64,000 nucleotides of DNA from an uncultured Verrucomicrobiota bacterium. GTDB lineage: Bacteria; Verrucomicrobiota; Verrucomicrobiia; Limisphaerales; UBA9464. A program made the translations under genes and the position numbers. Below, one piece after another: positions 27,326 through 61,937 of the stretch; position 1 is the stretch's first letter, and each line of letters starts with the position of its first letter. Location: NCBI GenBank assembly GCA_903907995.1, contig CAIVQH010000060.1, positions 372,001-436,000 on the forward strand, read 5' to 3'. The notes under the pieces were generated by a model, which searched no databases, was not told the DNA's origin, and worked only from the letters and a program-made list of their open reading frames with translations.

Positions 27326-27347
27326 AGCCGGCCCTTGCGGGCCGGCT
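27326..27347 (-). terminator. Strong intrinsic terminator of the hpnH-hpnJ operon
   Basis: Nine-base perfect stem AGCCGGCCC (27326-27334) and GGGCCGGCT (27339-27347) with loop TTGC. On the minus strand it is followed by TTTTTTC, a textbook T tract, and lies 22 bases past the hpnJ stop. On the plus strand it could also end larC, but lacks a T run there. Confidence 0.9.
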
Positions 27348-27368: not shown

Positions 27369-28820
27369 TCAGGCAGCAGCCAGAGCCTTCGAGGCGGCGA
27401 GGTCGTCCTTGCGCTGGCTGAGGCTGCGGAAGAACTCGTAGCCCTCGCGCACGCGGCGGACCATCACGCTCTTGTCTTCTAGCATCGTCTTGATGATCCG
27501 CAGGATGGGGCCGGGACGGAGATAGTAAGTGCGGTAGAAGCGGTCCACGGCCTCGAAAATCTCGTCCTTGTTCAGGCCGGGATATTCAAGCGTGGACTGC
27601 TGCAGACCGTCGCCGTGGAGAATGTCAGTCTTGTCCTTCTTCACGAACCAGCCGTTCTGCCGGGCCATTTCGTACAGCTCGGTGCCGGGATACGGCGCGG
27701 CGAGCGAGACCTGGAGCGAGAACACGTCCAGCTCCTTCGCGAAGTTGATTGTCTGCTCGATGCTCTCCTTGGTCTCGACCGGCAGGCCGAGGATGAAGGT
27801 GCCGTGGATCACCACGCCCGCCTTGTGGCAGGACTTGGTGAACTTCCGCATCTCGTCCGTGGTGACGCCCTTCTTGATGCGCTTGAGGGTGTCATCGTTG
27901 CCGGACTCGTAGCCCACGAGGAACAGGCGGAGGCCCGAGTCCTTCATGTACTTGATGGTGTCGTACTCCAGGTTGGCGCGGCTGTTGCACGACCAAGTCA
28001 GGCCCATCGGGGCGAGCTTCTTGGCGATCTCACGGGCGCGCGGGAGGTTTGCGGTGAAGGTATCGTCATCGAAGAAGAACTCCTTCACCTGCGGGAAGAT
28101 CTGCTTCATGTGCGCCATCTCGGCGGCGACGTTTTCGGCCGACCGGACGCGGTATTTGTGACCGCCGATGGTCTGGGGCCAGAGGCAGAAGGTGCACTGC
28201 GCCGGGCAGCCGCGTCCCGTGTACATCGACACGTACGGGTGCATCAGATAGCCGATGAAGTACTTCTCGATCTCGAGGTCGCGCTTGTAAACGTCCGCCA
28301 CCCACGGCAGCTCGTCCATGTTGTGGATCAGCTCGCGCTCGGGATTGTGGATGATCTTGCCGTCCTTCTTGAAGCTGAGGCCGGCGATGGTCTCCATCGG
28401 GCGGCCTTCGGCGACTTCCTTGCAGGTGAAGTCGAACTCTTTGCGGCCGACCCAGTCGATCGCGGGCGAGGCCTTCAGCGTCTCGGTCGGCAGCACTGCG
28501 GCGTGCGCGCCCACGAAGCCGATCTTCGTGTTCGGGCGGCGGGCCTTGATGGCCTCGGCCACCTTGCTGTCGTTCTTCAGCGACGGCGTGGAGGTGTTGA
28601 TGATGACGTGGTCAAAGCCGTCCGCGATCTTGAGGCACTCATCGACGCCGATGTTGTGCGGAGCGCAGTCGAGCAGCTTCGAGCCGGGCACGAGGGCCGC
28701 CGGCTGGGCCAGCCAGGTGGGATACCAGTAGCTGGTGACCTCACGCTTGGCCTGGTAGCGCGCGCCGGCGCCGCCGTCAAAGCCGTCAAAGGAGGGGGGA
28801 GATAAAAAAAGTGCGCTCAT
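27369..28820 (-). CDS. hpnJ: Hopanoid radical SAM protein HpnJ
   Basis: 483 residues. N-terminal B12-binding-like half opens with FLSPPSFDGFDGGAGARYQA and SYWYPTWLAQPAALVPGS, a signature shared by HpnJ proteins. The radical SAM centre is GRGCPAQCTFCLWPQ (CxxxCxxC), with EFFFDDDTF and FLVGYESGND further on. In Burkholderia, HpnJ is needed for the cyclitol-ether head group of extended hopanoids, by contracting or rearranging the sugar added by HpnI. Here it follows hpnH by 46 bases on the same strand; hpnI is at 56109. Confidence 0.92.
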   Translation of the reverse strand: MSALFLSPPSFDGFDGGAGARYQAKREVTSYWYPTWLAQPAALVPGSKLLDCAPHNIGVDECLKIADGFDHVIINTSTPSLKNDSKVAEAIKARRPNTKIGFVGAHAAVLPTETLKASPAIDWVGRKEFDFTCKEVAEGRPMETIAGLSFKKDGKIIHNPERELIHNMDELPWVADVYKRDLEIEKYFIGYLMHPYVSMYTGRGCPAQCTFCLWPQTIGGHKYRVRSAENVAAEMAHMKQIFPQVKEFFFDDDTFTANLPRAREIAKKLAPMGLTWSCNSRANLEYDTIKYMKDSGLRLFLVGYESGNDDTLKRIKKGVTTDEMRKFTKSCHKAGVVIHGTFILGLPVETKESIEQTINFAKELDVFSLQVSLAAPYPGTELYEMARQNGWFVKKDKTDILHGDGLQQSTLEYPGLNKDEIFEAVDRFYRTYYLRPGPILRIIKTMLEDKSVMVRRVREGYEFFRSLSQRKDDLAASKALAAA

Positions 28821-28866
28821 TAATGGGTGACTGTCAGAATAAAAAATGAATGGTCAGTGAGGCGGA

Positions 28867-30291
28867 TCATTCCGCCTTCACTTCGGTTTTCTTGGCCGCA
28901 TCCAGTTTGGCCAGCACCTCATCGCGCTGCGTGGTGTCCAGGCCAGCCTCATCATGGTCGTGGTGGCCCTTGCGCTGGAAGACGGACTGCGCGCCATTCA
29001 TGGCGGCGCGCGGCGAATTGATGGCCGCCTTCGCCTCGGCGAGGTGGCCCTTGCCGATGGTCGTGCCGTTGTAGGCGCGCTTCTCCAGCTCGACACTGGC
29101 CGCGACGGGCTTGGGCTTCGACCCAAAGTTGTAGGCGAAGTTCTTCCAGTTGTCGCCGGCCTGGTAGTTGGTGCCGAGCGCGCCGCTGGGATCATAGCCG
29201 CAGTGGACCATGCAGTTCTCGCAGCGCGGGTCGCGGGCCTTTCCGTCGACGACGCCGTAGTTCTCCCACTTCACGTTCCCCAGCATCTCCTGATAGCCGC
29301 CGTAGTGGCCGTCGGTCATCAGGTAGCACGGGGCCTTCCAGCCACGCACGTTGTACGTCGGGATGGCCCAGGCGGTGCAGGTCAGCTCGCGCTTGCCGGC
29401 GAGAAATTCCTGGTAAACCGGCGTGCCGAAGATGGTGAACATCTTCCCCCACTCCTGAATCTTCGCAAATTTCTGCCGCGTCATCTCGCGGGTCAGGAAG
29501 AACTCCTTCGGATCGCGACCGAGACGCTTCGCCATGTCCTTCTTGGCCGCGTCGTAATCGTAACCGGGGGAAATGGTGTGGCCATCGACTTCCAGCGAGC
29601 TGAGGTACTTGAACATGTCCTCCAGCTCCTGCACGTCGGTCTCCTTGTAAACCGTCGTGTTGGTCGCCGTCTGGTAGCCAAGGATCTTGGCCATCTTGAT
29701 GGCGGCGATGCACTCCTTGAACACGCCTTCGCGCTCGACAATGAGATCGTGCGTATATTCCAGGCCGTCCACGTGGACGTTCCAGTACATCCACTTGCTC
29801 GGGCGGATGACCACCTTGGTTTTGGCGGCACCCTCGGCCTTGCGGATGGCCTCGGCTTCCTTCTCGGTGATGAGCTGTTCCTTCAGCAGGCGCTGGAGCT
29901 TCGGCTCCATCGCGGGGGTGTACACCGCCGAAAGATAGTCGCGCATCTTCTTCCGCATGAAGACGCCGTTCGTGCAGACGTAGATGACCCGCCCCTGCTC
30001 GTGCAGGCCGGCGATCAGTTCCTCGATCTTCGGATAGATGAGCGGTTCGCCGCCACAGATCGACACCATCGGGGCGTCGCACTCCGTCGCCGCTCCGAGG
30101 CACTGCTCCAACGGCACCATGTCCTTGAGGTTCGTGGAGTACTCACGGATGCGGCCGCAGCCGGTGCAGGTGAGGTTGCACGTATGCAACGGCTCGAGCT
30201 GCAGCACCATGGCGAACTTGGGCGTCCGCGCGATTTTGTGCTTCACGATGTGTGAAGCGATCTTGACCGTCAGGGCCAGGGGGAAACGCAT
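28867..30291 (-). CDS. hpnH: Adenosyl-hopene transferase HpnH (radical SAM)
   Basis: 474 residues. MRFPLALTVKIASHIVKHKI and LQLEPLHTCNLTCTGCGRIR match HpnH; the [4Fe-4S] motif is CNLTCTGC. SICGGEPLIYPKI and YVCTNGVFM follow. C-terminal CTAWAIPTYNVRGWKAPCYL and CENCMVHCGYDPSG complete the family pattern. HpnH joins adenosine to diploptene (hopene), the first step to side-chain-bearing bacteriohopanepolyols. Compared with proteobacterial HpnH (~380 residues) this one has an insert of about 45 charged residues near 125-170 and a ~90-residue low-complexity tail, His-rich near KGHHDHDEAG. It lies 15 bases after a small lipoprotein gene. Confidence 0.94.
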   Translation of the reverse strand: MRFPLALTVKIASHIVKHKIARTPKFAMVLQLEPLHTCNLTCTGCGRIREYSTNLKDMVPLEQCLGAATECDAPMVSICGGEPLIYPKIEELIAGLHEQGRVIYVCTNGVFMRKKMRDYLSAVYTPAMEPKLQRLLKEQLITEKEAEAIRKAEGAAKTKVVIRPSKWMYWNVHVDGLEYTHDLIVEREGVFKECIAAIKMAKILGYQTATNTTVYKETDVQELEDMFKYLSSLEVDGHTISPGYDYDAAKKDMAKRLGRDPKEFFLTREMTRQKFAKIQEWGKMFTIFGTPVYQEFLAGKRELTCTAWAIPTYNVRGWKAPCYLMTDGHYGGYQEMLGNVKWENYGVVDGKARDPRCENCMVHCGYDPSGALGTNYQAGDNWKNFAYNFGSKPKPVAASVELEKRAYNGTTIGKGHLAEAKAAINSPRAAMNGAQSVFQRKGHHDHDEAGLDTTQRDEVLAKLDAAKKTEVKAE

Positions 30292-30306
30292 ACAGATGGA
30301 TCAGGA

Positions 30307-30513
30307 TCAGTCAACCGTCAGCAGAGAGGCCGGCCCCGAAGTGGCAGAAGTGGCTTCGGCACCCGGCACTGTGACCGGCTTGGCGTCATTCTTGAGGAGC
30401 ATAAGCGAGGCGGGCGAGGCCGAATAGCTGCCACCAAAGCTGCCGCAGCCGGCCGAGAGCAAGGCCACTGCCGCCAGCAGCGGCCAGACCAGTCTTCCTG
30501 ACTTGTTCTTCAT
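30307..30513 (-). CDS. Small lipoprotein ahead of hpnH
   Basis: 68 residues from the ATG at 30513. MKNKSGRLVWPLLAAVALLS followed by AGC gives a positively charged start, a hydrophobic core and lipobox LSAGC with Cys23, so the mature part is a 46-residue Ser/Ala/Gly-rich lipoprotein. It sits 15 bases upstream of hpnH and is likely the first gene of the hopanoid operon. I know no homologue; a role in hopanoid placement or simply envelope structure is open. The frame continues upstream of the ATG without coding features. Confidence 0.7.
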   Translation of the reverse strand: MKNKSGRLVWPLLAAVALLSAGCGSFGGSYSASPASLMLLKNDAKPVTVPGAEATSATSGPASLLTVD

Positions 30514-30664
30514 CGCGGGGAGGATACGGGCGCCATCCGTGACAGCAACAGCATATTTCCAAGAGGTGGCAGCCCCTTGCCCGGCCGGTTTTAGGTCCAA
30601 ATAAAGACCTTCCGGATACTCGTCGTTCGACAAGACTCTCCGTCGCCCGTTAGTCTGGGCGTCC

Positions 30665-31912
30665 GTGACGCTCAAACTCACCAGTGCGCTCGGGATATTC
30701 CTCCTTATCGCCTTTGCCTGGCTGTTCTCGGAACATCGCAGCCGCTTTCCCTGGCGCGCGGTGATCTGGGGGGTGGTGCTCCAGTTCGCCTTTGGTCTGT
30801 TCATCCTGCACACGGAGGCAGGGGCAAAACTGTTTGGCGGCTGCCAGGCGGCGGTCAACAAGTTCATCGGCTTCGCCAATGAGGGCAACCGGCTGGTCTT
30901 TGGCCCGCTCGCCAACTCCGATCTGATGGGCAAGGCCTTCGGCCCTAGCGACGCGTTTCTCTTTGTGATCGTGGTTACCGGCACGGTCATTCTCATCAGT
31001 GCCGTGTCCTCGCTGCTCTACCACTACAACATCCTGCAGGCCATCGTGCGCGCCATGGCCTGGGTCATGCGCCGGCTCATGGGCACCAGCGGCAGTGAGA
31101 CCCTGAGCGCCGCCGCCAACATTTTCATGGGCCAGACCGAGGCCCCTCTGGTCATCAAGCCTTACCTGGCCCGTATGACCCGCAGTGAGCTGAACTGCAT
31201 GATGGTCGGCGGTTTTGCCACCATCGCCGGCGGCGTCATGGCGGTCTATTCCGGGGTCCTGCACATTCCGGCCGGCCACCTGTTGACCGCCAGCGTCATG
31301 AGCGCACCTGCCGCACTCCTCATGGCCAAGCTGCTTGTGCCCGAAACGGAAGTCAGCGAGACCGCGGCCGGGGCAAACGCCAAAATCGAGCGGGAAACCA
31401 TCAATGGCATCGATGCCATCTGCACCGGGGCGGGCGATGGCATGAAGCTCGCCATCAACGTCACGGCGATGCTGATCGGCTTCACTTCCGTGGTCGCGGT
31501 GGCCAACTGGCTGTTGGGCTGGCTGCTGGGCCACGTTGGCTGGCACAATGACCAGCCTCTCCAGACCATTCTGGGCTATCTCAATGCCCCCTTCGCCTGG
31601 GCGATGGGCGTCCCGACGAAAGACTGCCTCGCGGTCGGGCAGATTCTGGGCGAACGCATCGTGCTCAACGAGTTCATCGGCTATCTCAGCCTCGCCAAAC
31701 AGCAGCCCACGCTGGATCCACGCAGTTATACCCTGGCCACTTACGCGCTCTGCGGTTTCGCCAACCTCGCGAGCGTCGCCATCCAGATCGGGGGCATCGG
31801 AGCTCTGGTGCCCAGCCGTCGCAGCGACCTGGTCACCCTCGGCATGAAGGCGATGGTGGGCGGTTTGCTGGCCAGCTACATGACCGCCTGCGTCTGTGGC
31901 GTTCTCACTTAA
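30665..31912 (+). CDS. Concentrative nucleoside transporter (CNT/NupC family)
   Basis: 415 residues, about 9-11 membrane helices. IFMGQTEAPLVIKPYLARMT is the nucleoside-binding signature of CNT proteins and GFATIAGGVMAVY follows; the C-terminal NEFIGYLSLAK and YALCGFANLASVAIQIGGIG are also conserved. It should import nucleosides with H+ or Na+. Start is GTG 30665; no upstream ATG keeps the frame. Divergent from the lipoprotein-hpnH operon, with 151 bases between. Confidence 0.92.
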   Translation: MTLKLTSALGIFLLIAFAWLFSEHRSRFPWRAVIWGVVLQFAFGLFILHTEAGAKLFGGCQAAVNKFIGFANEGNRLVFGPLANSDLMGKAFGPSDAFLFVIVVTGTVILISAVSSLLYHYNILQAIVRAMAWVMRRLMGTSGSETLSAAANIFMGQTEAPLVIKPYLARMTRSELNCMMVGGFATIAGGVMAVYSGVLHIPAGHLLTASVMSAPAALLMAKLLVPETEVSETAAGANAKIERETINGIDAICTGAGDGMKLAINVTAMLIGFTSVVAVANWLLGWLLGHVGWHNDQPLQTILGYLNAPFAWAMGVPTKDCLAVGQILGERIVLNEFIGYLSLAKQQPTLDPRSYTLATYALCGFANLASVAIQIGGIGALVPSRRSDLVTLGMKAMVGGLLASYMTACVCGVLT

Positions 31913-31979
31913 CCCTTCAAATCACACTCGCGTCTGGCAGAGTGCCGTCTGTCCGACGTTCCATTCCGATTTAGTACGG

Positions 31980-34187
31980 ATGCCGATGCCAAGCCTGCAA
32001 CCCCATCCCTTCAAGCACCCAGTCCTTTGCCTTTGGCTGGCAGGGGTCCTGTTGGGGGCGCTGGCCGCCCCGGCCTTTGCCGCTGAGCTCGGCCCCCGAA
32101 ACGACCTGGAGCGGGTCACACTGCAACTGAAGTGGAAGCACCAGTTCCAGTTCGCCGGCTACTACGCGGCAGTCGCCCAAGGGTATTACCGGGAAGCCGG
32201 TCTCGAAGTTGTCCTTCGGGAAGCCGAACCAACCCGCGATCCCGTGGAGGAGATGCTCCAGGGAAAGGCTGAATTCGGCGTGGGCACCTCGGAACTGATG
32301 CTGCTCCGGGCCAAGGGCAAACCGGTGGTGGTGCTGGCGGTCATTTATCAGCATTCCCCTCTTGTGCTGCTGGCACGGCGAACCAACGGGGTGGAAGACC
32401 TGCAATCACTGGCCCACCGGCCCATCATGATCGAGCCGCAATCGGCCGAGCTGTTCGCCTATTTCAAAATCGAGGGGATCGATCCGGCCAAGCTCGACAT
32501 CCAGCATCACAGCTTCGACGTGCAGGACCTGGTCAAAGGACATGTCGCCGCAATGTCGGCCTACTCGACGGACGAACCGTTTCTCCTACGGCAGGCCGGA
32601 ATCGAGTTGCTCACCTTCACGCCCCGCGCCGGCGGCATTGATTTCTACGGTGACAACCTGTTCACGACCGAACAGCAGCTGCGCGAGCACCCGGAGCGCA
32701 CGCGCGCCTTCCGGCAGGCAAGCCTCCGGGGCTGGGAATACGCCCTGGCCCATCCGGCCGAGATGGTGGACCTGATCCTGCGCGAACACGGCCAGCGGAA
32801 AAGCCGTGAGCATCTTCTTTTTGAGGCCAGCCAGACGATCCAGCTCGTACACCCCGAGCTCATCGAGGTCGGCCACATGAACCACGGCCGCTGGCGGCAT
32901 ATTGCCGACACCTATGCGGAGTTCGGTATGGTACCCGCCGGCTTCCCGCTCGACAAATTCCTGTACGACCCGGACCCACAGCCAAACTACGCCTGGGTAT
33001 ACTGGACGTTGGGCGGAATGGCGGTGGTGGCGCTGGCGGCGCTGGGTTGGGCACTGCCCCTATACCGCCTCAACTGCCGGCTGAAACAGAGTGAACGCCA
33101 GTACCGGGAGCTGGCCGAAAACGCCCCCTTCCCCGTCGCCATCAACGAGCTCGACACCGGCAGAGTGCTCTTCGCCAACCGGCGGGCCGACGGATTGTTT
33201 GCCGCTCCGGCCGCCAGTCTGGTCGGCCGGCCGGTTGATGATCTTTTCCACGATCCGGCGGACCGTGAACGGCTACTGACCGAGCTACGCGCCGGCCGTT
33301 CGGTGTCCGACCTGGAAGTCTGCCTCCGGGTGGGCGACCGCAAGTTTTGGGCGCTGCTGTCGGCGGGTCCGGTCGAATTCGCCGGTCATCGGGGACTGTT
33401 TGTAGCCTTTCAAGACATCACGGCCCGCCACGCCATCGAGGAGGAACTGCGCCGGGCCAAGGACGCCGCCGAAGCGGCCAACGTCTCCAAGAGCAACTAC
33501 CTCGCGGTAATGACCCATGAGGTGCGGACGCCCCTCAGCGGCATCATCGGTCTGGCCAGCATCATCCAGGACCATCCCCTGGAGTCCGAGGTGCGCGAGC
33601 AGGTGCGGCTGATCGAATCCACGGGCGAAACCCTGAACCAGCTCATCAGCAACATTCTCGACTATTCCAAGCTCGAAGCCGGGCGGCTCGACGTCGAGCA
33701 CATCCCGATGGAGGCGGCGCAGCTGCTTCACGATCTCTCCCGCCTGTTCTCCACCTCAGTCCAGACGAAAAACCTCGGCCTGCACGTGAAACTGGATCCC
33801 TGCGTTCCGTCGGTCGTCCTCACCGATCCGGCGCGGCTCCGGCAGATACTGAGCAACCTGCTCTCCAACGCGATCAAGTTCACCGCGCAGGGAGGCGTGG
33901 AACTTCACGTCACCGCCCCGCCCCAGACCGATGGCAGCATCCGACTGCGCTTTTCGGTGAAAGACACTGGCGTCGGCATCGCGCCTGAGCGGATCGAGCT
34001 GCTCTTCCAACCGTATGCCCAGGCGGATAATTCCGTCGCCCGTCGCTATGGCGGCACGGGGCTTGGGCTCGTCATTTCGAGGGATTTGGCTCGCCTGTTG
34101 GGCGGTGACCTGACTTTGACGAGTGTTCCTGGGCAGGGCTCCACCTTCACCTTGGAGATTCGCGTCAAACTTCCGGAACAAGGCTGA
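31980..34187 (+). CDS. Sensor histidine kinase with SsuA/THI5-like periplasmic domain
   Basis: 735 residues from ATG 31980 (or ATG 31986). Signal HPVLCLWLAGVLLGALAAPA, then an SsuA/THI5 (NMT1)-type solute-binding domain to ~335 (VTLQLKWKHQFQFAGYYAAV, FGVGTSELMLLRAKG, GDNLFTTEQQL), one membrane helix ~337-362, a PAS domain ~375-485, and a kinase core with His513 in MTHEVRTPLSGIIG, N box NLLSNAIKFT, G1 DTGVGIA and G2 GGTGLGLVIS. The sensor domain resembles binders of thiamine precursors, taurine or nitrate. There is no receiver domain and no response regulator beside it. A nucleoside transporter precedes it and pyrimidine-like ligands would fit, as inference only. Confidence 0.9.
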   Translation: MPMPSLQPHPFKHPVLCLWLAGVLLGALAAPAFAAELGPRNDLERVTLQLKWKHQFQFAGYYAAVAQGYYREAGLEVVLREAEPTRDPVEEMLQGKAEFGVGTSELMLLRAKGKPVVVLAVIYQHSPLVLLARRTNGVEDLQSLAHRPIMIEPQSAELFAYFKIEGIDPAKLDIQHHSFDVQDLVKGHVAAMSAYSTDEPFLLRQAGIELLTFTPRAGGIDFYGDNLFTTEQQLREHPERTRAFRQASLRGWEYALAHPAEMVDLILREHGQRKSREHLLFEASQTIQLVHPELIEVGHMNHGRWRHIADTYAEFGMVPAGFPLDKFLYDPDPQPNYAWVYWTLGGMAVVALAALGWALPLYRLNCRLKQSERQYRELAENAPFPVAINELDTGRVLFANRRADGLFAAPAASLVGRPVDDLFHDPADRERLLTELRAGRSVSDLEVCLRVGDRKFWALLSAGPVEFAGHRGLFVAFQDITARHAIEEELRRAKDAAEAANVSKSNYLAVMTHEVRTPLSGIIGLASIIQDHPLESEVREQVRLIESTGETLNQLISNILDYSKLEAGRLDVEHIPMEAAQLLHDLSRLFSTSVQTKNLGLHVKLDPCVPSVVLTDPARLRQILSNLLSNAIKFTAQGGVELHVTAPPQTDGSIRLRFSVKDTGVGIAPERIELLFQPYAQADNSVARRYGGTGLGLVISRDLARLLGGDLTLTSVPGQGSTFTLEIRVKLPEQG

Positions 34188-55261: not shown

Positions 55262-55897
55262 TCACGATCCGCCCGCAAACCCGGCCGTCAGCCGTCCCCT
55301 TACCTTCACTTCACCTCGGGCAATCGCGGCGATGGCGGCGGGGTACAGCTCACGTTCGGCCTGCTGGATGCGTTCATGCAGCGTCACCGCCGTATCGCCA
55401 TCGAGGACCGGCACCGCCCGCTGCCCGATGATTGCGCCGGTGTCGATGCCCTGATCCACGTAATGCACGGTGCAGCCCGTCACCTTCACCCCATAGTCGA
55501 GCGCCTGTTTCCAGGCGGCCAGACCGGGAAAGGAAGGCAGGAGCGACGGATGGATGTTCACCACGCGTCCCTCAAACGCCCGCAGAAACTCACCCTTGAG
55601 AATGCGCATGAAGCCGGCCAGCACGACGAGATCCACCTGCGCCTCCCGCAACGCGCCGATATAGGCGGCCTCGGCCGATTCATCGAGCTTGGTGCGGAAC
55701 GGCCCCGGGACGATATGGCGGAAGGGCAGCCCACGCTGGGCGGCGTGCTGAAGGATGCCTGCCTCAGCCACATCGCTGGCGACGAGGACTACCTCCGCCG
55801 ACACCTGCCCGGCAGCGATGGCATCGGCGATGGCGACAAAATTCGAGCCCTTGCCCGAACCGAGGACGCCGATACGCAGCGGTAAAGTTTGCGACAT
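55262..55897 (-). CDS. purN: Phosphoribosylglycinamide formyltransferase
   Basis: 211 residues from ATG 55897; upstream the frame is open but without homology. Transfers a formyl group from 10-formyl-THF to GAR in purine synthesis. [12 protein letters not shown] binds substrate; catalytic Asn114 and His116 in [14 protein letters not shown] and Asp152 in [10 protein letters not shown] correspond to N106, H108 and D144 of the Escherichia coli enzyme. Length is normal. The gene is divergent from hpnI across a spacer with short repeats and does not lie with purD (8392). Confidence 0.94.
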
Positions 55898-55961
55898 GCG
55901 CGCAGAGTGACCCGATTCGCCCGACGGATGGAAGATGGCAGTTGGGCGCGGGGCGAGGCTG

Positions 55962-56074
55962 AGGAGACAGGAGACAAAATTCAGGAGACAGGAGTTGGCT
56001 GTTGAAGGCTGATTCCGCTCCATAACAGCCTGCGAGAGAGAGCCTGGTTTGCAGCTCCTGAATCCTGTCTCCTT
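55962..56074. repeat. Direct and inverted AGGAGACAGGA repeats in the purN-hpnI spacer
   Basis: AGGAGACAGGAG occurs at 55962-55973 and again at 55983-55994 (21-base period) and its inverse, TCCTGTCTCCT, at 56063-56073. The two orientations could pair as a hairpin or form an operator array between the divergent purN and hpnI genes. Whether the copies bind a regulator is unknown. Confidence 0.6.
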
Positions 56075-56108
56075 GCTTCCGGCACCGCCGGGCTGCGACA
56101 ACTCGCGC

Positions 56109-57269
56109 GTGTTGCTTTGTTGGATTTTCGGAATCCTCGCCCTGATCAGCGTCGTTACTGGCGTGTGGCAGTTTGTCGCGGCGATGCGTTTCCCGCTGCA
56201 CCGGCGCGTGACGGACAAGTCGTTCGCGCCGGGCGTGACGCTGCTCAAATCGCTCAAGGGCTGCGACGACCACACCCGCGACTGCCTGCGGAGCTGGTTC
56301 ACCCAGGATTATGCGGGCCCGGTGCAGATTCTCTTCGCCGTGCAGAACGCCGCTGACCCCGTTTGTGAGGTCGTGCGCTCGTTGCAGCAGGAATTTCCGC
56401 AGGCCGACGTGCGGCTCGAAATCGTCTCCACGCTCCTCGGGGCCAACGCCAAGGTCTCGAAGCTCGCCCACCTCGAATCGCTCGTGGTGCACGAAATCGT
56501 CATCATCAGCGATGCCGACGTGAAGATACCGGCGGACCTGCTCACCAACATCGTCGCTCCGCTGCGTGATCCAAAAGTGGGATTAGTGAACTGCTTTTAC
56601 CGGCTGGCCAACCCCACCACGGCGGCCATGCGGTGGGAAGCCGTGGCGATCAATGCCGATTTCTGGAGCCAGGTGCTCCAATCCCGCACGCTCCAGCCGC
56701 AGGATTTCGCGCTCGGCGCGGCGATGGCACTCCCGACGGCCCGACTCGTGGAAATCGGCGGCTTTCGCGCGCTGGTGGATTATCTGGCGGATGACTATCA
56801 GCTAGGCAACCGCATCGCGAAGAGGGGCTACCGCATCGAACTGTGCCCGGTAGTCGTCGAATGCTGGGACCCGCCGATGGGCTGGAAACAAGTATGGGCC
56901 CACCAGCTGCGCTGGGCCCGGACCATCCGGGTCTGCCAGCCGGCGCCGTTCGCGGCGAGCATCCTGAGCAATCAGGGACTCTGGCTGGTCCTCTTCGGCC
57001 TCGTCAGTATCGGGCGGTTGGATGGCGAGGTCTCGGTTGGCACCGATGCATTGTTGATCGCCGCGCTGGTTTGGCGCGTGCTGCAAGTGCGCCAGCTGGT
57101 GATCCAGCTGGGCTTCAGCCAAAGGTTTCCGTCGCTCGCCGATGTGGTTCTGCTGAAGGATCTCCTCAACGCCGCCATCTGGGCGGCAGCCTTGTTTGGC
57201 AACACCGTTGTCTGGCGTGGCGTCACCTACCGCGTCGGTCGCGATGGCAAGCTCACACGCCTCATCTAG
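56109..57269 (+). CDS. hpnI: Hopanoid glycosyltransferase HpnI
   Basis: 386 residues from GTG 56109; TTG 56049 would add 20 residues in repeat DNA. Opens with a membrane helix ([20 protein letters not shown]), then a GT-A (ceramide glucosyltransferase-like) domain: [46 protein letters not shown] with [36 protein letters not shown] and [16 protein letters not shown]. The [15 protein letters not shown] block is characteristic of HpnI, which adds GlcNAc to bacteriohopanetetrol before HpnK and HpnJ act. Two C-terminal helices keep it in the membrane. Confidence 0.85.
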
Positions 57270-59196: not shown

Positions 59197-59665
59197 ATTC
59201 GACCAGCCGGATCGAGCCAGGAAACTGGCTTTTCGCAAACTCCTCCAGCATCAGGGCCTTGGCCTTTTCGGGGGAGAATCCGCCCGAACCGGTTCCCAAC
59301 AGCGGAAATGCCACCGATCTGAAGCCGGCCGTTCCCGCCACCCGGAGAGCGTTTTTTACCGATTCACGAATCGAATAGGCCGAGGCCCGCCACAGCATGT
59401 TGATGCCGGCCACGTGGATGATTCCACGAAACGGAAGCCGCCCGGCCCCCGTCAGGATCGCTTTTCCCAGTGGCACTGGCCCATGCCGGGCCACTTCGCG
59501 GAACGGTTCCGTGCCGGCCGCGCGCTTGATGGCCCCCGAAACGCCCTGAGGCAGCAACAGCCACCACGGGATGATATTCCGGTTCCAAGCGTTGACGATG
59601 GCCTCGACCGGCTGCTGAAGGAGATCGCCTTCCACGACACACCAGTTAGGCATCAATGGCTGCAT
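59153..59665 (-). CDS. Macro-domain protein
   Basis: 170 residues (ATG 59653 is an alternative start). Single macro domain: VVEGDLLQQPVEAIVNAWNR, LLPQGVSGAIKRAAG (loop binding the distal ribose), PVPLGKAILTGAGRLPFRGI, IIHVAGINMLW and VAFPLLGTGSGGF (phosphate loop). Such domains bind or hydrolyse ADP-ribose and related nucleotides, for example removing ADP-ribose from proteins. The usual NAAN motif reads NAWN. The C-terminus is Ala-rich. Its end overlaps the convergent pseudouridine synthase. Confidence 0.88.
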   Translation of the reverse strand: MQPLMPNWCVVEGDLLQQPVEAIVNAWNRNIIPWWLLLPQGVSGAIKRAAGTEPFREVARHGPVPLGKAILTGAGRLPFRGIIHVAGINMLWRASAYSIRESVKNALRVAGTAGFRSVAFPLLGTGSGGFSPEKAKALMLEEFAKSQFPGSIRLVEFNPQAAAAAATGPA

Positions 59666-59763
59666 GGGAGTTTAACTCTGTTCCGGCAATAAGGTTTCGC
59701 CTGCATCCGATCCGGCAAACGCGGCCATTGCCTACCCCTTTGTCCGTCCGCTACAACGCTCCG

Positions 59764-61158
59764 GTGTCGCAGCAACAAACTCTCCGCCAGCCTGTTTCCT
59801 TTGCCGGCATCGGCCTGCATTCGGGAAACAAGGTCAGCATGAATTTCCTGCCCGCGCCGCCCAACACCGGGCTGCGCTTCCGGCGCATTGATCTGGACGG
59901 CAAGCCCGAGCTCGAGGCCCGGGCCGAATTCGTCACCGATACCCAGCGCTCTACCACGCTGAGCAAGGGGCCGGTCAAAATCCATACGGTGGAGCATGTG
60001 CTGGCCGCCTTCGCCGGGGCGGGCGTGACCAATGCCATCATTGAGATCGACTCCAACGAGCCCCCCATCGCCGATGGCAGCTCACGGGAGTTTGCCCAGC
60101 TGGTCCGCGAGGCCGGCATCACGGTCCAGACCGATCCGATCGAGCCCTACAAGATCACCACGCCGATCGAGCTGACCATCGGTGAGACGCAGCTCGCCAT
60201 TTTCCCCTACAACGGCTTCAAGATCACCTGCACCAGCTCCGACAGGGGCGGCCGCTTTACCCAGTTCTATTCCACCGAGGTGACGCCGGAGACGTGGGAG
60301 AAGGAACTGAGCCACGCGCGCACCTTCTGCTTCTACGAGGAAATCGAATTCCTGATCCGCAACGGGCTGATCAAGGGCGGCAGCCTCGAAAACGCGATCG
60401 TGATCCGCGAGGACGCCGTGCTGACCAACGAACCGCTCCGCTACCCGGAGGAGTTTGTCCGGCACAAGATGCTCGATATCGTCGGCGACCTCTCCCTGGT
60501 GGGCCGTCCCATCCACGGCCACGTCGTCGCCGTGAAGCCGAGCCACCACGCGAACACCGAGCTGGCCAAGGCCATTCTCGCCCAGATGCGCCGCCCTCTC
60601 GAGCAGGCGCAGACGTTCGCCCCGCCGCCAGCCGCCAGCCAGCAGGCTGAAGCTCCCAGTTCCAAATCCTCCAAGCCCGCTCCGAAACCTGTGTCCACCG
60701 CCGCCGCCGAACCTGCCGTCAAGGACGGCGCCTCGCTCGACATCAACGAGGTGATGAAGCTCCTGCCGCACCGGCCGCCATTCCTGATGGTGGACCGCGT
60801 GCTCAAGATCGAGGGCAACAAGATCACCGCGCTGAAGCAGGTCACCATCGGCGAACCGTACTTCGCCGGCCATTTCCCCGGCCACCCGATCATGCCCGGC
60901 GTGCTGCAACTGGAGGCCATCGCGCAGGTCGCTGGCATCCTGATGATGCGGCAGGCTGAGAATGCCGGGAAACTCGCCTACTTCATGTCGGCCGAGGATG
61001 TGAAATGGCGCAAGCCCGTCACCCCGGGCGACACGCTCATCATCGAGGTCGAGCTGACCAAATCACGCGGCAAGATCGGCCGCGCCAAGGGGACATGCCT
61101 CGTCAATGACGAGGTCGTGAGCGAGGCGGTCGTGACCTGCATGTTCTTCGAACGCTGA
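59764..61158 (+). CDS. lpxC-fabZ: Fused LpxC-FabZ: UDP-3-O-acyl-GlcNAc deacetylase and hydroxyacyl-ACP dehydratase
   Basis: 464 residues from GTG 59764 (TTG 59740 is possible). Residues 1-280 are LpxC: TLRQPVSFAGIGLHSGNKV, Glu77 and His78 in HTVEHVLAAF, and His234 and Asp238 in RHKMLDIVGDLSLVG bind zinc, with His261/262 as the acid. A ~45-residue Pro/Ala/Lys linker joins FabZ at ~325-464: LPHRPPFLMVDRV, catalytic His370 in FAGHFPGHPIMPG and Glu384 in LQLEAIAQVAG. LpxC makes the committed step of lipid A; FabZ supplies hydroxyacyl chains. The fusion is known from Bacteroidetes, Chlamydiae and Verrucomicrobia. lpxA follows 2 bases later. Confidence 0.96.
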   Translation: MSQQQTLRQPVSFAGIGLHSGNKVSMNFLPAPPNTGLRFRRIDLDGKPELEARAEFVTDTQRSTTLSKGPVKIHTVEHVLAAFAGAGVTNAIIEIDSNEPPIADGSSREFAQLVREAGITVQTDPIEPYKITTPIELTIGETQLAIFPYNGFKITCTSSDRGGRFTQFYSTEVTPETWEKELSHARTFCFYEEIEFLIRNGLIKGGSLENAIVIREDAVLTNEPLRYPEEFVRHKMLDIVGDLSLVGRPIHGHVVAVKPSHHANTELAKAILAQMRRPLEQAQTFAPPPAASQQAEAPSSKSSKPAPKPVSTAAAEPAVKDGASLDINEVMKLLPHRPPFLMVDRVLKIEGNKITALKQVTIGEPYFAGHFPGHPIMPGVLQLEAIAQVAGILMMRQAENAGKLAYFMSAEDVKWRKPVTPGDTLIIEVELTKSRGKIGRAKGTCLVNDEVVSEAVVTCMFFER

Positions 61159-61160
61159 TC

Positions 61161-61937
61161 ATGGCGACGAACATTCATCCGACGGCGGTCATCCACGCGG
61201 GCGCTCAACTGGGTGCCGATTGCGAAGTCGGGCCCTACTGCGTCATCGGCGAACACGTCCGCCTCGGCGATCGCTGCAAATTGCATTCCCACGTGGTCAT
61301 CGACGGGCACACCACCCTAGGTGCCGAGAACGAGGTGTTCCCGTTCGCCTGCCTTGGTCTCAAGACACAGGACCTGAAGTGGAAAGGCGGAGTCACCCGC
61401 GTCGACATCGGCGACCACAACGTCTTCCGCGAGTACCTCACCGTCCACAGCGCCACCAGTGATGGCGGCGCCACACGGGTCGGCTCCCACAACCACTTCC
61501 TCGCCTACGTCCATCTCGCGCACGACGTGCAGTTGGGCAGCCACATCATCATGTCCAACGTGGCGACGCTCGCGGGGCACGTCACGGTCGAGGATCACGC
61601 GATCATCGGCGGGCTCGCTGCCGTGCATCAGTTCTGCCGCATTGGTAAGTACGCGATGATCGGCGGCTGCGCCAAGGTCGTGCAGGACATCCCGCCGTTC
61701 ATGATGGGCGACGGCAACCCGGCCGAGACGCGCTTCATCAACAAGGTCGGCCTGGAACGCAACGGCTTCGCCCCCGAGGTCGTGAAGGCGCTCACGCACG
61801 CCTACAAGATTCTCTTCCGCGAAGGGCTCACCATCTCCAACGCGCTCACCAAGATCGAAGCCGAGCTGCCGAAGTCGCCCGATCTCGATCACCTCGTCGC
61901 CTTCATCCGCGCCAGCGAGCGCGGCATTTCGAAGTAG
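61161..61937 (+). CDS. lpxA: UDP-N-acetylglucosamine acyltransferase LpxA
   Basis: 258 residues, standard length. Left-handed beta-helix with hexapeptide repeats: NIHPTAVIHAGAQLGADCEV, then LAHDVQLGSHIIMSNVATLA with His121 as catalytic base (His125 in Escherichia coli), and AAVHQFCRIGKYAMIGGCAK. C-terminal helices NKVGLERNGFAPEVVKALTH and ILFREGLTISNALTKIEAEL. It is the first acylation of lipid A and is co-transcribed with lpxC-fabZ. Confidence 0.97.
   Translation: MATNIHPTAVIHAGAQLGADCEVGPYCVIGEHVRLGDRCKLHSHVVIDGHTTLGAENEVFPFACLGLKTQDLKWKGGVTRVDIGDHNVFREYLTVHSATSDGGATRVGSHNHFLAYVHLAHDVQLGSHIIMSNVATLAGHVTVEDHAIIGGLAAVHQFCRIGKYAMIGGCAKVVQDIPPFMMGDGNPAETRFINKVGLERNGFAPEVVKALTHAYKILFREGLTISNALTKIEAELPKSPDLDHLVAFIRASERGISK

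Follow-up and report, generated by a model that had tools for sequence, protein, structure and literature searches.

A small lipoprotein gene conserved in the order Limisphaerales precedes the hopanoid elongation genes hpnH and hpnJ

The window analysed here, a 64,000-nucleotide (nt) stretch of DNA from an uncultured verrucomicrobium of the Limisphaerales type (G000:C60:372001-436000 of a 5.1-Mb genome that is 95.67% complete), carries the elongation part of a dispersed extended-hopanoid pathway, in which a gene for a 68-residue lipoprotein is followed by hpnH and hpnJ. The lipoprotein is the new element, the hopanoid enzymes being ordinary. It usually accompanies hpnH in the order and is also retained, under purifying selection, in lineages in which neither HpnH nor a full cyclase was detected. 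We tentatively favour the reading that it is an outer-membrane lipoprotein with a general envelope role, probably concerned with lipids, that is co-expressed with hopanoid elongation rather than being a part for hopanoid transport only. The operon comprises the following genes.

30307..30513, minus strand: lipoprotein gene, 68 residues (signal peptide; lipobox Cys23; core CGSFGGSYSASPASLMLLK; low-complexity Pro/Ala/Ser tail)
28867..30291, minus strand: hpnH, adenosyl-hopene transferase, 474 residues (TIGR03470, 354.6 bits, cut-off 225.05; PF11946; PF04055)
27369..28820, minus strand: hpnJ, B12-binding radical SAM enzyme, 483 residues (TIGR03471, 748.1 bits, cut-off 577.6)

The three genes are arranged in tandem and are transcribed in the order lipoprotein, hpnH, hpnJ, with gaps calculated from the coordinates of 15 and 46 nt, respectively. 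Membership of hopanoid families was judged, throughout the genome, by curated NCBIfam cut-offs. The HpnJ match covers positions 1-471 of the 472 in TIGR03471 and places the protein in that family; HpnH belongs to TIGR03470 and contains radical SAM (PF04055) and DUF3463 (PF11946) domains, and its CxxxCxxC iron-sulphur motif (C38, C42, and C45; CNLTCTGC) is invariant in 13 aligned sequences. Coordinates and family scores agree with an earlier sequence-only reading of the window, which had placed hpnH and hpnJ in one operon led by a 68-residue lipoprotein.

A readable lipoprotein gene was found in 43 of the 49 hpnH regions cut out from the family to which the window belongs. The ratio of nonsynonymous to synonymous substitution rates (dN/dS) was 0.08-0.71 in 20 pairs of lipoprotein genes and, with the window and G007 copies included (dN 0.05, dS 0.08), was below 1 in 21 of 21 pairs. 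On these ratios and the conservation, a chance or spurious open reading frame (ORF) was rejected, and on this sequence evidence the lipoprotein gene is a real gene under purifying selection. The six regions without a readable copy comprise those of G001, G003, G016, and G002 and both regions of G015. Two of them, both in genus g5 (the second G015 copy, L111, and G016, L105), show a degenerate reading upstream of hpnH that lacks the lipobox Cys; the other of the two hpnH copies in G015 (L088) has no lipoprotein at all, and the G002 region stops at a contig end.

The lipobox Cys is invariant in 42 aligned members and the preceding Gly is nearly so, features that assign these proteins to the lipoprotein type. 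In most members, the lipobox leads into a core of the form C-[GS]-G-x(5-6)-S-[VIA]-S-P-x-x-F-x-L-P-G, after which comes a Pro-rich tail that differs in length between members; the copies read from the window's own genus lack the PG part of the core. A division into two clean subtypes, i.e. SPATF forms beside hpnH and SPLDF forms elsewhere, was rejected because SPLDF forms also precede hpnH. Searches of Pfam and NCBIfam assigned the lipoprotein to no family, yielding weak scattered matches among the 42 members, and the earlier view that it represents no described family holds for both databases. The lipoprotein is of interest in itself as a conserved, unnamed envelope family.

Profile A1, derived from copies in the family to which the window belongs, detected the lipoprotein (E 1e-4 or better) in 193 of the 245 genomes that represent the order and in 103 of 115 genera, nearly always as a single copy. 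In a phylum sample of 288 genomes, 19 passed E 0.01, one of which was the genome of the window. The loci in the other 18 scored 5.0-18.0 bits, compared with 45.2 and 88.9 bits for two controls, and none of them combines a signal peptide with the whole core, the fragments being mostly lipobox-like. The nearest of these loci (L122) has an open frame of 37 residues, 13 of which form a core-like stretch, and was read as a chance match. The lipoprotein thus appears to belong to one order and is not convincingly present in the phylum-wide sample. The titled relatives of HpnH are labelled Limisphaerales, Pedosphaera, Verrucomicrobia subdivision 3, and others, and some of these labels look wrong.

In the 245 genomes, profile counts gave 174 with both the lipoprotein and HpnH, 19 with the lipoprotein only, 5 with HpnH only, and 47 with neither; after the contigs had been read by hand, these numbers were 183, 11, 4, and 47, respectively. 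Eight genomes joined the first class from the second (G358, G374, G438, G472, G504, G543, G557, and G558; hpnH truncated by a contig end or on a palindromic contig), and G363 joined it from the third, its lipoprotein having been found with profile A4. The HpnH of G419, one of the four remaining in the third class, is at a contig end, and profile A4 identified no lipoprotein in any of the 47 genomes with neither. Fisher values calculated for the pairing take account of neither kinship nor genome incompleteness and should not be read as probabilities. Among the matches listed (the position tables list 147 and 149 genomes of the order), both positions are given for 115 genomes, and in 111 of these, which span 42 families, the lipoprotein gene lies upstream of hpnH on the same strand. 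Because the pair recurs across the order, the association is not due to chance.

Similar results were obtained with 80 titled loci, in 59 of which the lipoprotein gene is directly upstream of hpnH. The distance from its stop codon to the hpnH start has a median of 6 nt and is 30 nt or less in 50 of 57 loci and 2-14 nt in 49 of 57. A cyclase gene lies close to hpnH, with no lipoprotein seen before hpnH, in 15 of the 80 (one of these, L312, has just 42 nt of upstream DNA), and six have neither the lipoprotein nor a nearby cyclase (one, L271, is at a contig end). The conservation of the lipoprotein next to hpnH in other genomes, which the sequence-only reading had made a point on which it could fail, was therefore borne out across the order. 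Two irregular arrangements were also seen: the palindromic contig of G472 (L237) carries the start of the lipoprotein-hpnH pair twice, in mirror image, which probably results from faulty assembly, and in G431 two small genes separate hpnH from hpnJ (L203 9708-10614). The latter gene pair is presumably of the HEPN/nucleotidyltransferase kind.

The lipoprotein and the hopanoid genes are separable. Eight genomes from the genera g226 (G409, G503, G513, G551, and G556) and g216 (G392, G427, and G467), of which six are 92-96% complete and two are 73 and 76% complete, keep the lipoprotein and have no HpnH match at the profile threshold. None of them contains a cyclase above the cut-off; seven have no match at E 1e-20 and G467 has a partial match of 74.7 bits. 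Within these groups, the dN/dS of the lipoprotein was 0.10-0.56 in 10 pairs and 0.16-0.33 in three pairs (one with saturated dS). In G392 and G427, decayed C-terminal remnants of hpnJ (L342 7061-7376 and L343 7216-7434) follow the intact lipoprotein gene, and no such remnant was seen in G467. The gene downstream of these remnants, which we take to be ABC-F-like, comes after hpnH in G449, a genome of the same genus in which hpnH is present. Two further genomes, G529 (92% complete) and G425 (82%), contain the lipoprotein, with neither HpnH nor a cyclase found, and the reverse applies to G402 (98%) and G393 (90%), in which a cyclase and HpnH are present and no lipoprotein was found. Since lineages without a detected HpnH or a full cyclase keep the lipoprotein under purifying selection, its function seems not to depend on hopanoids. 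Such relatives amount to a natural deletion experiment that separates a hopanoid role from a general one.

Other neighbourhoods of the lipoprotein gene include transporter genes. In G389, G425, and G448, all of genus g213, it opens a run of genes for an STAS-MlaE protein, an ABC ATPase, MlaD, and what is probably an auxiliary lipoprotein (identified by Pfam in G389 and by eye in G425 and G448, the auxiliary lipoprotein scoring under its Pfam cut-off). The hpnH genes of G389 and G448 have no lipoprotein before them, and HpnH was not found in G425. In G001, the lipoprotein gene and an HlyD-ABC-MacB set (HlyD and MacB identified by Pfam) are transcribed divergently, as are the lipoprotein gene of G003 and an HlyD-like gene, after which the contig ends. 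Operons for transporters of the MlaE/MlaF/MlaD type (MCE lipid transporters) are led by the lipoprotein gene in genus g213 only, and to our knowledge the lipoprotein is not a known Mla component.

In the favoured reading of a general envelope role, the lipoprotein would be a Sec substrate that is lipidated on Cys23 and then sorted to the outer membrane. Sorting to the outer membrane is suggested because the residue after the Cys is Ser or Gly, not Asp, in nearly all members (Ser in 31, Gly in 24, Thr in two, Ala in one, and Asp in none of 58 loci, among which L282 was read at an earlier Cys). The working part may be the lipidated core of about 22 residues, with the Pro-rich tail as a flexible spacer, and the protein would act in outer-membrane lipid assembly or traffic, its co-expression with HpnH and HpnJ tying hopanoid elongation to the building of that membrane. 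A role in outer-membrane lipids would fit the type of lipoprotein, its gene partners, and its moves.

Several observations weigh against this reading. The rule that Asp after the Cys governs sorting comes from Proteobacteria. The structure model of the lipoprotein is poor, with a mean predicted local distance difference test (pLDDT) score of 60.5. Both the lipoprotein and HpnH are absent from f63 (17 genomes) and g244 (seven), which are 61-95% complete, and from G475, the sixth g226 genome (92% complete), and these joint absences fit a hopanoid-tied role better, with the proviso that absences in draft genomes can be gaps. G469, G480, G434, and G499 have solitary or second copies with other neighbours. 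The link to lipids comes from one genus for the MlaE/MlaD run, whose three genomes probably reflect a single event, and from one genus, with two genomes, for the exporter.

LptM of Escherichia coli (formerly YifL), a small lipoprotein of the lipopolysaccharide (LPS) translocon (PMC10567701), offers a comparison; the two resemble each other in size, in Gly/Ser after the lipidated Cys, in a short conserved stretch after that Cys, and in conserved gene neighbours. Homology to LptM was rejected: PF13627 matched none of the 42 members and NF047847 matched three of 42 weakly (best E 0.018), 10 members having been examined more closely. The NF047847 alignment seen covers positions 1-20 of 31 with 12.2 bits versus 27.7, which falls outside LptM membership. 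LptM may serve as a model for how so small a lipoprotein can act, not as a relative. By this analogy, the lipoprotein might be a new kind of small factor that handles outer-membrane lipids; its lipidated core might dock on a machine for outer-membrane lipid traffic (hopanoid, MlaD-type, or LPS), as LptM does on LptDE, and the operon would couple the supply of elongated hopanoids to outer-membrane building across the order, a more specific proposal that we regard as speculative and rather unlikely. The lipoprotein is nevertheless a concrete candidate for a link between hopanoid supply and the outer membrane, in an order known mostly from metagenome assemblies. Among the papers searched, none joined Limisphaerales with hopanoids or Verrucomicrobia with small lipoproteins and the outer membrane.

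The strongest competitor, somewhat less probable than a general envelope role with co-expression, is that there is no functional link, i.e. that the protein is an ordinary outer-membrane lipoprotein (a structural component or assembly aid) whose promoter is borrowed by hpnH and hpnJ in an inherited gene order. The separability of the lipoprotein and the hopanoid genes in both directions and the promoter-like pair directly ahead of the lipoprotein gene (see below) are consistent with this, as may be the analogy with lptM, a gene whose neighbours are conserved in Proteobacteria and which likewise encodes a small outer-membrane lipoprotein (PMC10567701). However, adjacency across 42 families exceeds what drift usually leaves, and the move beside MlaE/MlaD-type and MacB-type transporters points to lipids or export.

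We consider it improbable that the lipoprotein is a hopanoid-specific part that helps with the transport or placement of elongated hopanoids in the outer membrane, as the sequence-only reading had proposed. Besides the close pairing with hpnH across 42 families, the joint absences in f63, g244, and G475 described above, together with that in G342, argue for it; six genomes of this set were searched for a cyclase (four from f63, one from g244, and G342), and none was found. G037 and G039 keep a cyclase and HpnK and have neither HpnH above the cut-off nor the lipoprotein. Because f63, g244, G475, G037, and G039 lack both, a tie to HpnH remains for many lineages. Nevertheless, the proposal as stated is not supported, since g226 and g216 retain the lipoprotein under purifying selection without a detected HpnH or a full cyclase. 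It is further disfavoured by the cyclase- and HpnH-containing genomes in which the lipoprotein was not found (G402 and G393), by the 15 titled loci with a nearby cyclase, whose HpnH has the same insert as that of the window (see below) and no lipoprotein gene before it, and by the presence of a full-length HpnN-like transporter. Hopanoid delivery to the outer membrane and the matching of supply to membrane growth are only partly known, involving HpnN and possibly HpnM (PMC12583986). The HpnN relative in the present genome is encoded on another contig, scores under the cut-offs of both TIGR03480 (570.7 bits, cut-off 751.85) and NF052374 (311.0 bits, cut-off 1100), and is unrelated to the lipoprotein.

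That the reading frame yields no working protein, the ORF having arisen by chance or acting as a leader in the control of hpnH translation, is very improbable: a short ORF lying 2-14 nt upstream of hpnH in 49 of the 57 loci and a likely leaderless start would suit a leader, but the lipobox and core are kept across the order, dN/dS is below 1, and the frame is intact where hpnH is gone.

The remaining hopanoid genes are dispersed in the genome, with one located at the far side of the window.

56049..57269, plus strand: hpnI-like glycosyltransferase gene, next to purN (TIGR03472, 296.8 bits, cut-off 310; PF13506)

This protein covers positions 3-371 of the 373 in TIGR03472 and falls just under the cut-off, and purN occupies 55262-56302 on the minus strand. 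The placing of hpnI near purN by the sequence-only reading was thus correct as to position, but the family assignment stops short of the HpnI cut-off. HpnK, which that reading had not seen, is encoded outside the window at G000:C60:106110-106916 (TIGR03473, 265.5 and 266.8 bits, cut-off 232.6), the sole match above the cut-off in a genome search in which the window itself was not scanned ORF by ORF, and adjoins the gene for HpnD (302.8 bits, cut-off 278.6). A squalene-hopene cyclase was also identified outside the window (TIGR01507, 682 bits, cut-off 431.1), and its absence, which would have counted against a hopanoid pathway, did not occur. An HpnG-like protein, likewise encoded outside the window, scored 112.2 bits against TIGR03468, under the cut-off of 187.1.

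According to PMC12583986, HpnH transfers the 5'-deoxyadenosyl group to diploptene, and HpnI, HpnK, and HpnJ together make bacteriohopanetetrol cyclitol ether and are jointly present or absent in most strains studied. The window HpnH is predicted from its sequence to be an adenosyl-hopene transferase, the activity being known from other proteins. Because the cyclase, HpnD, and HpnK are present along with HpnI-, HpnG-, and HpnN-like proteins, production of extended, cyclitol-ether-type hopanoids by this verrucomicrobium is plausible; the presence of counterparts of all of HpnI, HpnK, and HpnJ supports the earlier prediction to this effect. Compared with alphaproteobacterial sets containing hpnH and hpnI-hpnJ-hpnK (PMC12583986), the enzymes are the same, whereas here the genes are dispersed, the hpnH-hpnJ pair is led by a lipoprotein gene, HpnH has an insert of 43 residues, and the HpnI-like protein scores under its cut-off.

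29806..29934, minus strand: HpnH insert, 43 residues, predicted helical hairpin (alignment with canonical HpnH; AlphaFold2)

Alignment with two canonical verrucomicrobial HpnH proteins placed this insert at about residues 120-162 and revealed a second insert of about 10 residues, in good agreement with the length of about 45 residues noted earlier. The insert lies away from the CxxxCxxC motif, and the invariant Cys residues of the C-terminal domain are also kept. In the AlphaFold2 model, it forms a helical hairpin with a local pLDDT of about 90, in a whole model of low quality (mean pLDDT 54.2). It is shared with ten other insert-type proteins in the alignment (eight of the order and two of other families of the class). 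An insert of 41-45 residues was likewise seen in every one of the 15 titled loci in which a cyclase gene lies near hpnH, and the labels of several of these loci name Spartobacteria or Chthoniobacterales. Given this spread among relatives, the insert is an old lineage trait rather than one specific to the window. The long His-containing tail of HpnH noticed previously is also real (GHHDHDEA), a comparable His run being present in the alignment only in L233 and L230. One genome of the order, G440, has a second, canonical HpnH without the insert (C202:1746-2693; L199) beside the insert type, which may reflect transfer or contamination.

Upstream of the lipoprotein gene, comparison with titled relatives revealed a candidate promoter.

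30521..30526, minus strand: candidate -10 box TATCCT, 7 nt before the ATG (position conserved in titled relatives; window copy degenerate)
30543..30548, minus strand: candidate -35 box TTGCTG, with a 16-nt spacer

A TTGCCA-N16-TATACT-like pair with at least 9 of 12 matches precedes the start codon in 53 of 58 loci, including the window, compared with about 5.7 in shuffled sequences; this score is descriptive, since the motif was chosen from the sequences on which it was then scored, and the shuffles use the same maximum search and keep base make-up only. The spacer is 16 nt in 47 of the 58 loci, and in 50 the distance from the end of the -10 box to the start codon is 6-9 nt. The boxes of the window are weak, and a generic sigma-70 scan reported no promoter. 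Since the -10 box is so near the start codon, about where transcription would begin, the mRNA of the lipoprotein is probably leaderless.

27326..27347, minus strand: terminator-like hairpin 3' of hpnJ, before the convergent larC (9 pairs followed by a T run)

This hairpin is a pattern match only, with one found compared with an average of 3.4 in shuffled sequences. The operon is flanked downstream by the convergent LarC gene and upstream by a divergent gene for a NupC-type transporter. In several families, secreted-looking proteins of about 270-283 residues are encoded divergently from the lipoprotein-hpnH operon (e.g. L203 7269-8105 and L330 1151-2002), and one of similar size is divergent from hpnH at L228 6261-7073; the L203 protein, the single one run, matched no Pfam family. 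Elsewhere in the window, a histidine kinase (31896-34187) has a long N-terminal part before the kinase part, which we assume to resemble an NMT1/THI5-type binding protein. A fused LpxC-FabZ gene followed by LpxA is located at 59656-61937, and lipid A is therefore probably made.

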